Shown: positions 46,394 through 53,481 of the stretch, one piece after another
Position numbering within the stretch: position 1 is the first letter of the stretch
Layout of the letters: every line of letters starts with the position of its first letter
Assembly (NCBI RefSeq): GCF_013036045.1
Contig: NZ_WTPX01000009.1
Location: forward strand, 1 to 63,119
Source: Alienimonas chondri
Lineage (GTDB): Bacteria > Planctomycetota > Planctomycetia > Planctomycetales > Planctomycetaceae
Length of the DNA: 63,119 nucleotides
Direction: 5' to 3'
The notes under the pieces: model-generated
Seen by the model: only the letters and a program-made list of their open reading frames with translations
What the model was told of the DNA's origin: nothing
Database searches by the model: none
Program-made: the position numbers and the translations under genes

Positions 46394-46406
46394 GTTGATT
46401 GCACTG

Positions 46407-46438
46407 TAACGCGGAGGCTCCGCGGAGCCTCCGCGTTA
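46407..46438. repeat. 32-base perfect palindrome between ltaE and hisD
   Basis: The left arm TAACGCGGAGGCTCCG is followed at once by its exact complement, with no loop bases. It fills most of the 55 bases between the divergent ltaE and hisD starts. The same element recurs at 47814-47849 with a compensated base-pair change. Either a shared operator or a dispersed REP-like palindrome. Confidence 0.85.
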
Positions 46439-47813: not shown

Positions 47814-47849
47814 CGTAACGCAGAGGCTCCGCGGAGCCTCTGCGTTACG
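47814..47849. repeat. 36-base perfect palindrome after hisD
   Basis: The left arm CGTAACGCAGAGGCTCCG is followed by its exact complement. It differs from the copy at 46407-46438 by G to A in one arm and the matching C to T in the other, so symmetry is kept. It begins nine bases after the hisD stop and ends eight bases before the start of the next gene. There is no T run. Confidence 0.85.
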
Positions 47850-47857
47850 ATCGAACC

Positions 47858-49000
47858 ATGAGCCTCGACGCCCTCCCCCAGACCCGCGCCGTCCTCGAAC
47901 AGGGCCGCGCCGACGGTCTGCACCACGGCGCCCAGCTGTTCGTGTCGCATCGCGGAGACCTGATCTGCGACCGCGCCGCAGGCGAGGCTCGGCCCGGGGA
48001 GCCGCTGAAGCCGAAGCACCTCATGCTCTGGCTGTCCAGCGGCAAGCCGATCACCGCGGCAGCGGTCGTCGATTGGTGCACGCGAAGTGACGAAGCCGGC
48101 CCCCGCCTGGACGATCCTGTCGCCAAATACTTGGCGGCGTTTGCAGCGGGCGGGAAGGGGGACGTGACGATTCAGCATCTCCTCACCCACACGGGCGGGT
48201 TTCCCGACGCCGATCCCGGCTACCCGAACGTCTCCTGGGAGGAATCGATCCGCAGGGTCTGCGAGGCCCCGTTGGCGGACGGGTGGATCGTGGGCGAGAC
48301 CGCGGGCTATCACCCGAAGTCGTCGTGGTTCATCCTCGGCGAACTGCTGCGTCTGTGGGAGAACGAACCGGCGACGGACGCGATGCACGAACGAGCCGGC
48401 TTCAATGAGACGATCACGCTTCAGCGCGTCATCCGGAGCGGGTTTTACGGATGGTGGAGCGTCGGCGAGCATCGAGTGGATGAAGTACGCCCGACGCTCG
48501 CCCCGATGTACCGCCGTGCCGGACGGGAGCTCGTCGAGACGGAGCATCAGGACGACGTCCACCTCACCCGCGACTCGCCCGGTTCGTCGCTCCGCGGAAC
48601 CGCCGCGGACCTCGGCCGGTTCTACCTCGATCTGCTCGACGCGATGCGAGGGCTGGGCGAGTCCTTTCCGCAGGCCGCCGCCGAACTGCTCGTCACGCCT
48701 CATCGCGTCGGAGTCCGTGACCGGACGTTCCAGCACACGGTCGACTTCGGCCTCGGGGTGATCATCGATTCAAACCGCTACGGGGCGGACACCGTGCCGT
48801 ACGGGTTCGGGCCGCACTGCTCGCCTCGGACGTTTGGGCACGGGGGGAGCCAGTCGTCGATGGCCTTCTGCGATCCGGAGCACGAACTCGTCGTCGCCTG
48901 GGCGACCAACGGGATGTGCGGGGAGCCGAAGCACCAGCGTCGCAATCGGGCGATCAACGCGGCGATTTACGAAGACCTCGGGCTCGGCCTCAGCGGCTAG
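47858..49000 (+). CDS. Beta-lactamase/class C-like serine hydrolase
   Basis: 380 residues. The catalytic SxxK is in LWLSSGKPITAAAVVDW (Ser-Ser-Gly-Lys, near residue 61), followed by IQHLLTHTGGF, a common feature of this family. A GYHPKSSW segment takes the place of the usual Tyr motif and HGGSQSSMAF near the end replaces the KTG box. No signal peptide is evident, so it may be a cytoplasmic esterase or peptidase. Substrate unknown. Its last four bases overlap the end of the convergent BRCT/TPR gene. Confidence 0.88.
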   Translation: MSLDALPQTRAVLEQGRADGLHHGAQLFVSHRGDLICDRAAGEARPGEPLKPKHLMLWLSSGKPITAAAVVDWCTRSDEAGPRLDDPVAKYLAAFAAGGKGDVTIQHLLTHTGGFPDADPGYPNVSWEESIRRVCEAPLADGWIVGETAGYHPKSSWFILGELLRLWENEPATDAMHERAGFNETITLQRVIRSGFYGWWSVGEHRVDEVRPTLAPMYRRAGRELVETEHQDDVHLTRDSPGSSLRGTAADLGRFYLDLLDAMRGLGESFPQAAAELLVTPHRVGVRDRTFQHTVDFGLGVIIDSNRYGADTVPYGFGPHCSPRTFGHGGSQSSMAFCDPEHELVVAWATNGMCGEPKHQRRNRAINAAIYEDLGLGLSG

Positions 49001-50316
49001 CGCACGTCGTTCGGCAGGCCCAGCCGGGTCCGGGCCAGCTGCGCCCATGGGCCGCGGTCGTCGTGAACGAGATAGGCTCGATAGTGCTCCTGCGCGCCCT
49101 CGTCGCCCAGCGTGTGCAGGCTCTCGGCGAGATGAAAGTGAGCTTCGGGCAGGTCGCCGTGGATCGCCAGTGCCGTGCGGAACGCCTTGCTCGCGGAGCG
49201 ATGCTCGCCGCCGCTCGCCCGCACGCAGCCGAGTTGCACCCAGGCTTCGAGGTAGCGCGGGTCATGCTCTGTCGCCGCTCGGTAGCGTTCTGCCGCGGCG
49301 TCGGGACGGCCGGTGCGAAACAGGGCGTCGGCGAGGTGAAAGTGAGCCTCGGGATGCGCCGGTTCCTTCGCCAGACAGGCTCGCAGCGCCGGCTCCGCGG
49401 CGGCGGGGTCGTCGGCGTCCAACCGCTCGATGCCGAGCCGGAGCCACTGGGCGGCGGTGCGACGCTCGGGCCGTTCGCCGTCCGCATCCGGCAGGCGGAG
49501 CAGGGCGGGGGAGGGCGGCTCGCCTTCCGGGGACGCGGGTTCGAGCGAGGCGTCCGCAGCGAACTCCAACACCCGCTGCCCGCTCGCCGGTTCACGCAGT
49601 CCCGCGTCGTCCCGGACCAGCAGACGCCCATCGTGAGCGAGCAATTCGAGCCGTCCCGCGGCGATCGCGTCCTCGCCGAAGACCTCCGTCAGGGACGCCA
49701 ACCCGGCTTCCAACTCCGAACGGGACACGCCCGCGGCTAACAGCTTCGCCAGCGTTCGGGTGCGGGCGACCTCGGCGAAGTCGAAGTACGGCAACCGGTG
49801 CACCGTCTTCACCGGCCGAATCAATCCGTCTCGCGCCCAGCGGCGGATGCGGCCGGGCGTCACGTCCAACAGGCCGGACAGCATCGCCGGCGTGTAGAGG
49901 CGTCGCACGCCCGCGGAGAGATCCGCGTCGAGCGGGGCGCTGAGTCCCGCGGCCCGCAGCCAATCGCTCTCGGCGAGCACCCGCACGGTCGCCTCGCCGG
50001 TGCGATTCCACTCCGCCGCGTGGCGGAACTTCACGGTCGGGGCGCCGTCGTCGGCCAGCGGCCAGCCCTCCTCGCCCACCACCAGCAGCGTCGTGCTTCG
50101 AGTGAGGCGCTCTGTGAACGTCCCCCCGAGGTCCGCGACCAGCCGTGCCGCTGCGGCGTGCGTCATGCTCGCCAATGTGCCGGTGAAGGCGATCGTCTCC
50201 CCGGCGAGCGGCGGCGGATCGGCGGGTTCGGTCGACGGCGGGTCGACGGCGTCCTCCGACGAATCGTCGCCGACGGCTTCCAGCGATTCGGCAGATGGGA
50301 GCGATTCCGCGGGCAC
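48997..50316 (-). CDS. BRCT - MerR-type HTH - TPR fusion protein
   Basis: 439 residues with three modules. Residues about 36-125 form a BRCT domain of the DNA ligase type (AGETIAFTGTLASMTHAAA, TTLLVVGEEG, ESDWLRAAG). About 133-205 is a MerR-like winged helix (LYTPAMLSGLLDVTPGRIRRWARDGLI, then YFDFAEVARTRTL). From about 275 to the end are four or so TPR units with a repeated EAHFHLADAL pattern. Such a combination suggests a DNA- or phosphoprotein-linked scaffold or regulator; the function is unknown. Start ATG 50316 is followed by an acidic linker. Confidence 0.8.
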   Translation of the reverse strand: MPAESLPSAESLEAVGDDSSEDAVDPPSTEPADPPPLAGETIAFTGTLASMTHAAAARLVADLGGTFTERLTRSTTLLVVGEEGWPLADDGAPTVKFRHAAEWNRTGEATVRVLAESDWLRAAGLSAPLDADLSAGVRRLYTPAMLSGLLDVTPGRIRRWARDGLIRPVKTVHRLPYFDFAEVARTRTLAKLLAAGVSRSELEAGLASLTEVFGEDAIAAGRLELLAHDGRLLVRDDAGLREPASGQRVLEFAADASLEPASPEGEPPSPALLRLPDADGERPERRTAAQWLRLGIERLDADDPAAAEPALRACLAKEPAHPEAHFHLADALFRTGRPDAAAERYRAATEHDPRYLEAWVQLGCVRASGGEHRSASKAFRTALAIHGDLPEAHFHLAESLHTLGDEGAQEHYRAYLVHDDRGPWAQLARTRLGLPNDVR

Positions 50317-50432
50317 GAGTCTGCGGGTCGGGGCGGGGAACGGATGTGGCAGGCGGCCGCGTGTCGGGCGGCAATTCTCTGCGGTAGTTTAGGAGCCTCC
50401 TTCGCCCCGCGCGCTCCCCCACCGGCCTCGTG

Positions 50433-51734
50433 ATGTCTTCGTCCGCCTCGTCCGCCCCCGCCTCCGGCCTGCAGACCGCCGGTCTGTCGCAAGCCGATCC
50501 CGACGTCTTCGCCGCGATCGAGCGCGAGCGGGGTCGCCAGACCGACGGCCTCGAACTGATCGCCAGCGAGAACTACACCAGCGCCGCCGTGATGGAGGCC
50601 CAGGGCACCTGCCTGACGAACAAGTACGCCGAGGGCTACCCCGGCCGCCGCTACTACGGCGGATGCGAGTACGTCGACCAGATCGAGAACCTCGCCCGCG
50701 ACCGGGCGAAGGAACTGTTCGGGGCGGAGCACGCCAACGTCCAGCCGCACGCCGGCAGCCAGGCGAACTTCGCCGCCTTCAGTGCGATCCTCAAGCCGGG
50801 CGAGACGTTCCTCGCCATGGACCTCGCCCACGGCGGGCACCTGACGCACGGCATGCACCTGAACGTCAGCGGCCAGTTCTTCAAGCCCGTCCACTACGGC
50901 GTCCGGCAGAGCGATCACCGGATCGACTTCGATCAGGTCGCGGCTCTGGCGAAGGAGCACAAGCCGAAGATGATCGTCGCCGGCGCCAGCGCCTACCCGC
51001 GGGAGATCGAGCACGCCCGCTTCGCCGAGATCGCCGAGGAGGTCGGCGCGAAGCTGCTGGTCGACATGGCCCACTACAGCGGCCTCGTCGCCGCGAAACT
51101 GCACGACGATCCCGTGAATGTGGCGGACGTGGTCACCAGCACGACCCACAAGACGCTCCGCGGCCCCCGCAGCGGGGTGATCCTCTGTCGGGAAGAGTTG
51201 GCGAAAGCGATCGACCGGCAAGTGTTCCCCGGCTCGCAGGGCGGCCCGCTGATGCACGCGGTCGCGGGGAAGGCCGTTTGCTTCCGCGAAGCGTTGCAGC
51301 CGGAGTTCAAGCAGTACGCCCAGCAGGTGCTCGACAACGCCCAGGCGCTCGGCGAGGCGCTGGCCGCGGGCGGCGTCACCCTGGTCAGCGGCGGCACGGA
51401 CAACCACCTGTTGCTCTGCGACGTCACCGCCGTGGGCACCACCGGCAAGATCGCGGAGAAGGCCCTCGACGCCGCCGGCGTGACGGTCAACAAGAACATG
51501 ATCCCGTTCGACCCCCGCAAGCCGATGGACCCCAGCGGCATTCGCTTCGGCACCGCCGCCCTCACCACCCGCGGCATGAAGCAGGACGAGATGAAACGCG
51601 TCGCCGCGTGGGTGCTCGAAGTGCTCGCCAACCCAGAAGACGAAGCTCTGATCAAACGCACCCACGAAGCCGTGACGGAGTTCACCCGCAACTACCCGGT
51701 CCCGGGCGTTAGCGCGGTCGGGGAGACCAAATGA
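50433..51734 (+). CDS. glyA: Serine hydroxymethyltransferase
   Basis: 433 residues. It converts serine and tetrahydrofolate to glycine and methylene-tetrahydrofolate, supplying one-carbon units. Family motifs: [34 protein letters not shown], the HLTHG segment, PLP Lys in [12 protein letters not shown] and [13 protein letters not shown] 50433 is chosen; a GTG one codon earlier is also in frame. The next gene starts within its stop codon (ATGA), although that gene has a very different composition. Confidence 0.97.
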
Positions 51735-52237: not shown

Positions 52238-52664
52238 CACTGAGTACGATTACATCTCTGGGCGGGCTAACCGAGCATCAGATCTGGCTCAACTAGGCAG
52301 TCGCGTCGAAGAAATTCTTGAGAATACTCGTCGCGGCAGCGCGATTTGGATGTCGACAGGACACCCCGACATCTACTTGAGCGACCTCGGTGACGACCGC
52401 TCGCTAGAGGTTGGGATCGAGTCGTCCAACTGTGTCTTCCGGATTCGTAACCACACCGGGCGCAAGGAGTTCAATGTGTCGCTTCCGTGTCCAAATCTAT
52501 TGGATTTCAAAGAGACCGGCGGGAGTCGAGCGGAACTTAACAGCTTGGAACTGTTAGTCTTGGCAGCAGCGGATAAAGCCCGAAAAGCTGAACTCCCACA
52601 GGCTAGGTTTGGCTCCCAGTTGTTACTCCCAGTCGAAGAGGATTCAGCCGCAGTGGTGAGTTGA
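52227..52664 (+). CDS. Hypothetical soluble protein, lower GC, partner of the preceding gene
   Basis: 145 residues. The ATG at 52227 lies inside the end of the preceding gene, suggesting coupled translation. Not recognised. The N-terminal 35 residues are helical, the middle is beta-like (SAIWMSTGHPDIYLSDLGDD, EVGIESSNCVFRIRNH, EFNVSLPCPNLL) and the end is helical again. No signal or membrane segment, so it may work in the cytoplasm with the anchored protein. Its last 62 bases overlap the end of larE on the other strand. The composition matches the preceding gene. Confidence 0.65.
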   Translation: MKLSTEYDYISGRANRASDLAQLGSRVEEILENTRRGSAIWMSTGHPDIYLSDLGDDRSLEVGIESSNCVFRIRNHTGRKEFNVSLPCPNLLDFKETGGSRAELNSLELLVLAAADKARKAELPQARFGSQLLLPVEEDSAAVVS

Positions 52665-53481
52665 GGCTCCCGCTACGAAACCCCTCCAAATCGAGGGTCA
52701 CGTAGCGGAAGCCCAGTCGCTTGAGTTCCTCGCTGACCGCCGCCGCTTCGCCGCAGACGCGGGGCAGGGCGGGGCGGGGGACTTCAACGCGGGCCAGTTC
52801 GTTCGCCTCGCAGCGGACGCGGCACTCCCGCAAGTCGAACGTCGCTTTGAGCCAGACTTCCGCGGCGTCGACGCGGCGGACGCGTTCCTCCGTCACCGGC
52901 ACGCCGTAGGCGATCCGGCTGCTCAGGCAGGGACTCGCCGGCTTGTCCCACACCGGCAGGTTCCAAGCTTGGGCCAACGCCCGCACGTCGGCTTTGGTGA
53001 AGCCGCACTCCAACAGCGGACTGCGGACGCCCCGGTTGCTGGCGGCCCGCATGCCGGGGCGGTGGTCGCCGGCGTCGTCGGCGTTGGCGCCGTTGACCAC
53101 CGCGTCCACGCCTAACTCCGGCAACAGATCGCCGAGTCGGTCGTAGAGTTCGCTTTTGCAGTGAAAGCAGCGGTCGGAGGCGTTCGCAAGGTAGTCCGGC
53201 GAGGCGAACTCGTTCGTCTTGAGCACGCGATGCCGGATGCCGATCGCCGTCGCGACCTCCGTCGCCGTGTCTAACTCCCCGGCCGCGAGGCTGGGGCTGT
53301 CGGCGGTGACGGCGACCGCGTTCTCTCCGCAGGCCAATGCGGCCGCTTTCGCGACGACGGCGCTGTCCACCCCGCCGCTAAACGCGACCGCCGCACGTCC
53401 CATTCCACGCAGCACGTCGAGCAACCGATCGCGCTTCGCGGCGAGTTCGGGGGAGAGCGGGGGGGATTGAACGGCGGGCAT
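52603..53481 (-). CDS. larE: LarE-type ATP-dependent sulfur transferase
   Basis: 292 residues. A PP-loop ATPase of the LarE family, which sacrifices a cysteine sulfur to build the nickel-pincer cofactor of lactate racemase. The PP-loop is SGGVDS at 35-40, a DRCFHCKSELY block follows near 103-113, and the likely sacrificial Cys is C185 in PASPCLSSRI. The usual C-terminal end VTLDLEGFRSGSLN is followed by 17 extra residues read from the lower-GC cassette before a stop. larB and larC are not in the window, so the role here could be another sulfur transfer. Confidence 0.88.
   Translation of the reverse strand: MPAVQSPPLSPELAAKRDRLLDVLRGMGRAAVAFSGGVDSAVVAKAAALACGENAVAVTADSPSLAAGELDTATEVATAIGIRHRVLKTNEFASPDYLANASDRCFHCKSELYDRLGDLLPELGVDAVVNGANADDAGDHRPGMRAASNRGVRSPLLECGFTKADVRALAQAWNLPVWDKPASPCLSSRIAYGVPVTEERVRRVDAAEVWLKATFDLRECRVRCEANELARVEVPRPALPRVCGEAAAVSEELKRLGFRYVTLDLEGFRSGSLNSPLRLNPLRLGVTTGSQT

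Follow-up and report, generated by a model that had tools for sequence, protein, structure and literature searches.

The window is the whole stretch of DNA that was analysed, 63,119 nucleotides from the planctomycete Alienimonas chondri, whose genome is 5.3 Mb and 97% complete. The gene of interest lies on the minus strand and is divergent from glyA. The gene, its parts, and its neighbour are listed below.

48997..50316, minus strand: gene of the BRCT-MerR-TPR protein, 439 aa, GTG start, TAG stop
50218..50316, minus strand: N-terminal tail, residues 1-33, low confidence and weakly constrained
49951..50217, minus strand: BRCT domain, residues 34-122 (Pfam, AlphaFold2, fold match, profile)
49717..49896, minus strand: MerR-type winged helix-turn-helix, residues 141-200 (Pfam, fold match, alignment)
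49558..49716, minus strand: helix after the MerR domain, then a small beta unit with GQRxxxF at its end, residues 201-253 (alignment, AlphaFold2)
49462..49551, minus strand: linker, residues 256-285, mostly low confidence (AlphaFold2)
49021..49461, minus strand: TPR array, residues 286-432 (Pfam, AlphaFold2, structure search)
50317..50429, no strand: intergenic region of 113 bases between the BRCT-MerR-TPR gene and the divergent glyA
50430..51734, plus strand: glyA, serine hydroxymethyltransferase (Pfam SHMT, 538 bits)

The open reading frame reported in the first-pass annotation was confirmed exactly at 48997-50316 on the minus strand, with 439 aa. The window gene and the sister-species copy have the GTG start codon in common. 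Chance or an artefact was ruled out, because the gene lies at the same position in the single-contig sister genome (G001, L043) and its domains are under purifying selection. The phage search gave partial matches only, none covering 80% of the query, and a phage origin was not backed. The window also encodes a PP-loop ATPase-like protein at 52603-53481, with weak Asn_synthase and QueC matches, which we take to be LarE-like; among the first 20 wide loci of the window's taxonomic family, the window included, 10 have such a gene close to glyA and the BRCT-MerR-TPR gene. A nearly identical 33-nt palindrome of the type GTAACGC-GAGGCTCCGCGGAGCCTC-GCGTTAC occurs at 46406-46438 and 47816-47848, flanking the histidinol dehydrogenase gene; it yields an RLRGASALG string in spurious open reading frames.

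The description of a three-module protein held in profile searches, since each module scored over its curated Pfam cut-off: BRCT (PF00533, 27.1 bits against 21.3, residues 34-104), MerR_1 (PF13411, 31.1 bits against 21.6, residues 141-200), and a number of TPR families over roughly 290-400 (among them TPR_14, 48.5 bits against 23.5). The whole-protein AlphaFold2 model (pLDDT 80.3) contains BRCT-like, winged-helix, and TPR parts, and the N-terminal tail has pLDDT 43-56 over residues 1-30. When the full model was searched, TPR structures filled the matches; the BRCT-MerR part was therefore folded alone (pLDDT 86.1) and searched separately.

In the PDB, the two-domain model matched the BRCT domain of RFC1 (7u1a, Z 9.9, rmsd 2.9, 79 aligned; 2ebu, Z 9.2, rmsd 2.2, 77 aligned) and LigA (9a6z, Z 9.3, rmsd 2.0, 76 aligned). 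A profile of the BRCT region, searched against PDB sequences, identified only RFC1 and DNA ligase at E <= 0.01, in ten distinct sequences (E 3.4e-8 for RFC1 and 2.2e-7 for LigA), which agrees with the earlier label of a ligase-type BRCT. The single BRCT of the window protein thus has the same sequence type and fold as those of RFC1 (p140) and LigA. Unlike RFC1 and LigA, the window protein has no clamp-loader or ligase domains, and its family has its own GEEGWPL stretch after the third strand of the BRCT.

The T, R, and K positions of RFC1 are assumed here to be the residues that hold the 5'-phosphate. T45, H53, and K96 of the window BRCT align with or near this site, where the placement of K is our own alignment. 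The first two positions are T and R in both RFC1 and LigA; the window BRCT differs in having H53 where RFC1 carries the arginine. Among the orphans of the window's taxonomic family, which are copies with no Ku neighbour, T45 and H53 are each present in 27/27 and K96 in 23/27, and the first G of the GG turn is retained in 27/27. The Ku-linked BRCT domains outside the class have T in 8/10, H or R at the second position in 10/10, and K in 4/10. The other orphans (Pirellulales and kin) have T45 in 0/13, H or R in 12/13, and K96 in 1/13. As T45 is lost and K96 mostly lost in these 13, end binding by the BRCT would not be conserved across all orphans. According to the part of PMC9293009 consulted, the isolated BRCT of RFC1 has a deep groove in which it binds a DNA end with a 5'-phosphate.

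The MerR part matched the DNA-bound structures of TipAL (2vz4, Z 7.8, rmsd 1.9, 57 aligned) and MtaN (1r8d, Z 7.7, rmsd 1.9, 58 aligned). Together with the Pfam score, these matches bear out the MerR-like DNA-binding fold that the first-pass annotation had named. The helix-turn-helix residues are also conserved, with nine MerR positions (T142, P143, A144, L146, W160, R162, L175, F178, and G196) invariant in 38 homologues. Q247 and F252 of the following linker unit are invariant in the same set; this unit ends in the family motif GQRxxxF, and is recognisable also in plasmid relatives. A 23-residue helix (199-221) is predicted by AlphaFold2 after the MerR domain. MerR regulators dimerise through a long C-terminal helix. 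Like TipAL and MtaN, the window protein has a winged helix-turn-helix fold; unlike them, it has a TPR array in place of the ligand-binding domain, and a BRCT in front.

The gene is widely conserved in planctomycetes. All 36/36 other genomes of the same taxonomic family were matched at E 1.2e-52 or better (59 genomes searched, own included), and the named relatives are planctomycetes such as Rhodopirellula baltica and Aeoliella. Among 38 homologues, Pfam matches at E <= 0.01 were found for MerR_1 in 38/38, TPR_2 in 38/38, and BRCT in 29/38. In the class sample, a profile of the MerR domain plus linker matched 135/248 genomes, including 67/68 of the window's taxonomic family (counted by hand); Ku was found in 10 of the same 68. 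The domain combination had been called uncommon. This is true in general, but in planctomycetes it marks a conserved protein family rather than a one-off, and a recent one-off fusion was ruled out by the distribution across planctomycete genomes.

Between the window and the sister species, dN and dS (NG86) were 0.057 and 0.538 for the BRCT, 0.075 and 0.804 for the MerR domain plus linker motif, 0.066 and 0.582 for the TPR, 0.354 and 0.556 for the N-terminal tail (residues 2-33), and 0.368 and 0.422 for the linker (256-285). The ratio is ~0.1 in each of the three modules and ~0.6-0.9 in the tail and linker; the modules are therefore constrained, and the connecting parts much less. Some other forms were observed. 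Short proteins that match the MerR-plus-linker profile, with open frames of 207-216 aa and no BRCT (L102, L103, L105, L106, L108), occur in planctomycete genomes of 2.0-2.5 Mb, and no Ku lies in the stretch read. L124 (G032) is a second BRCT-MerR-TPR copy, and its genome yielded no Ku.

A phylum sample of 294 genomes was searched with the MerR-plus-linker profile and with Ku (PF02735). The protein family was found in 44 genomes, Ku in 37, and both in 19. Ku is thus present in 19/44 family-bearing versus 18/250 other genomes (Fisher p = 1.3e-8, with kinship ignored). Outside the class, 24 genomes have the protein family and 17/24 also have Ku; those without Ku are G107, G193, G235, G258, G279, G300, and G314, the last of which has a Ku fragment near the family gene. 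At 16 loci outside the class, the gene is found 3' of Ku in the same orientation, with the centres 0.9 to 4.1 kb apart. Six copies inside the class are also downstream of Ku (L107, L123, L125, L198, L199, L200), which gives 22 such loci, and the genomes of L107, L123, and L125 each hold an additional orphan-type copy. LigD was found by tblastn in 15/19 tested Ku-downstream loci, and in one locus it was identified by Pfam. Four copies outside the class (L097, L098, L100, L101; 277-302 aa) are MerR-TPR proteins without BRCT. The linkage of this protein family to Ku is strong.

The reverse does not always hold. In wide stretches, no family gene adjoins Ku in 13/29 Ku loci outside the class (L182-L194) and in 16/23 inside it; the Ku genomes G231, G272, G283, G303, and G308, outside the class, were left out of this reading. 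One further in-class Ku locus (L207) has only a 206-aa neighbour, matched by a second profile. The Ku proteins without a family gene are mostly more distant from the query Ku, with exceptions such as L195 and L208. Tandem pairs of Ku genes with no adjoining MerR-TPR gene were seen at L191 (6641-8462) and L209 (5943-7816). At L185 (2284-3063) and L186 (905-1678), proteins of 258-260 aa are encoded on the strand opposite to Ku, 4-6 kb away from it; they were matched by the profile of Ku-linked MerR-TPR proteins, and not by the window-derived profile.

Relatives outside the phylum were found on plasmids. A tblastn search with a planctomycete relative lacking the BRCT gave 45 records. In 27 of them the hit was near-full-length, with 80% or more of the query covered, and these are all from Burkholderiales; the order was presumed from genus names, except in five records whose annotation prints it. 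Ku lies directly upstream on the same strand in 27/27 near-full-length records (positions compared by eye), and one of these pairs spans the origin of its record. The plasmids are related, and the 27 records are therefore not independent. In the annotation of 5/27 records, the gap between Ku and the 'tetratricopeptide repeat protein' or 'TPR repeat-containing protein' is -4 to +7 nt, and LigD is present within the 6 kb flanks in 3/5. Two additional plasmid loci that came up in the Ku search carry a MerR-TPR gene as well, and the Ku locus of a Gemmatirosa plasmid does not. Of the plasmid proteins tested, the window-derived MerR-plus-linker profile found 6/7 (E 1e-7 to 3e-12, in a small set) and missed L196. 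The plasmid search with the BRCT-MerR part of the window protein gave only partial matches, to genes annotated as exonuclease or BRCT.

A phylogenetic tree was built from 69 proteins (MerR to C-terminus, 297 columns) and rooted on the plasmid proteins; its bootstrap was not fully settled. The main planctomycete group has 59 rows (support 100/100), nearly all with BRCT; no BRCT was detected by profile in three of them (L093, L104, L119). The orphan clade includes the window and has 40 rows without Ku neighbours (100/98). Within it, the 27 orphans of the window's taxonomic family (100/100) and the 13 other orphans (100/99) form separate groups. On this topology, the simplest account has Ku linkage as the ancestral state, with its loss on the lineage leading to the orphan clade. 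The separateness of the Ku-linked copies in the window's taxonomic family from its orphans was also tested, and is unsecured: the grouping of three Ku-linked copies with the orphans was not rejected (AU test, p 0.091), so that the branching order may be a different one.

By its sequence, the window copy falls in a family in which the other members are linked to Ku. It has the MerR domain, GQxxxF linker, and TPR that define the family, and the profile built from its homologues finds the Ku-linked proteins. However, it fails as an NHEJ gene, because Ku and the NHEJ neighbourhood are absent. No Ku (PF02735) match and no LigD polymerase domain were found in its 97% complete genome, neither Ku nor LigD lies beside the gene, and Ku is nearby in 0/40 orphan loci. 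The orphan may therefore have changed its function altogether. The first-pass annotation had also hinted at a scaffold that reads the state of DNA and recruits partners. This hint is partly supported: it agrees with the constraint on all three modules and, most of all, with the Ku/LigD neighbourhood of the relatives, although the genome of the window copy itself has no Ku.

Because the Ku-adjacent relatives include the plasmid forms without BRCT, the MerR-TPR core seems to be an undescribed accessory factor, coupled to Ku, in bacterial NHEJ. Our preferred reading, with a probability of roughly 0.48, is that the window protein binds DNA as an adaptor at breaks or nicks, that it derives from this Ku-coupled accessory family, and that its ligase partner is other than LigD. 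The BRCT of RFC1/LigA type and the MerR-type winged helix would hold DNA at the break or nick. Dimerisation like that of MerR, if present, could let the protein bridge two DNA segments. The TPR array would recruit an enzyme, which may be Ku or LigD for the Ku-linked members. Planctomycetes might have added the N-terminal BRCT to the MerR-TPR core, and in the class of the window organism one copy might have become a vertically inherited, Ku-independent gene. The domains, the fold match, the conservation, the Ku adjacency of the relatives, and the absence of Ku here are observed, while DNA binding, dimerisation, recruitment, the change of partner, and the direction of evolutionary change are inferred. 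Since the window carries the orphan form, its ligase partner would differ from LigD. LigA would be the simplest candidate, as neither Ku nor a LigD polymerase domain is present in the genome, and the search for further BRCT proteins there found LigA alone.

Three other explanations were weighed against this reading. The protein might be a transcription factor whose MerR domain binds the divergent promoter and controls glyA and itself, with the BRCT and TPR as protein-binding sensors. The MerR fold does resemble DNA-bound regulators, and glyA lies on the opposite strand in 19/27 wide loci of the window's taxonomic family, the window included (within about 2 kb in 18 loci, and 6.2 kb in one). 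However, the protein is conserved where glyA is not nearby, in 8/27 loci of that taxonomic family and all 13 other orphan loci of the class, and the relatives lie downstream of Ku in the same direction rather than divergent. No clear operator of the kind used by MerR regulators was found upstream of the gene: in the 113-base intergenic region, the search showed no MerR-size operator-like palindrome and no sigma-70-like promoter, but an imperfect, overlapping palindrome of 9 nt and some GC-rich repeats. A simple regulator of glyA was lowered as the main reading because the linkage is confined to part of one taxonomic family, and it keeps a small but real chance.

The protein might instead be an adaptor of the replicative ligase LigA, or act in other DNA metabolism such as nick sealing or nucleoid upkeep, with no tie to double-strand breaks. 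In its favour, RFC1 and LigA are the closest solved relatives of the BRCT profile, LigA is the sole other BRCT protein found in the genome, and LigA lies near the gene in one wide locus (L052). Against it, this was the only such locus, so that LigA linkage is not a rule, and the relatives are tied to Ku; we judge this explanation unlikely. MerR proteins are usually transcription factors, and autoregulators are commonly co-transcribed with their targets; the MerR-TPR protein of the Ku operons might then be the regulator of the operon only, and the orphan a drifted regulator. But two phyla repeatedly show the gene paired with Ku, on plasmids with gaps close to zero, and the fusion to a BRCT of RFC1/LigA type is hard to explain for a mere regulator. 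We judge this reading quite improbable.

Bacterial NHEJ is described as Ku plus LigD in the parts consulted of PMC7719229 and PMC1378119. The neighbourhood analysis in PMC7719229 concerns ku and ligD, and the consulted part of that paper does not mention MerR, tetratricopeptide, or BRCT; the corresponding part of PMC1378119 does not mention BRCT, and that of PMC10386641 contains neither MerR nor Planctomycet terms. PMC11936186 contains none of the terms looked for. In the open-access literature, with older subscription papers outside the scope, no recognisable study of a BRCT-MerR-TPR protein or a Ku-linked MerR-TPR gene was found.

The point of interest is the tie of the family to Ku, not the domain combination alone. 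What the family shares with bacterial NHEJ (Ku plus LigD) is the location of the relatives' genes next to Ku and in many cases LigD, whereas the window genome itself lacks both Ku and the LigD polymerase domain. A broader proposal is put forward tentatively: NHEJ in at least two phyla may have an unrecognised third component, an end-holding and ligase-recruiting MerR-TPR protein coupled to Ku, which is fused to a BRCT in planctomycetes and has a descendant in Planctomycetia that acts in the repair of breaks or nicks independently of Ku. The BRCT fusion would then parallel the BRCT-bearing factors of eukaryotic NHEJ. If this is true, a conserved gene directly behind Ku, in planctomycetes as well as on Burkholderiales plasmids, would add a component to what is described as a two-protein system, and this candidate suits the existing Ku-LigD end-joining assays at once. 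The orphan would illustrate how an accessory protein of NHEJ can persist after Ku is gone, and planctomycetes would gain a candidate DNA-break adaptor.
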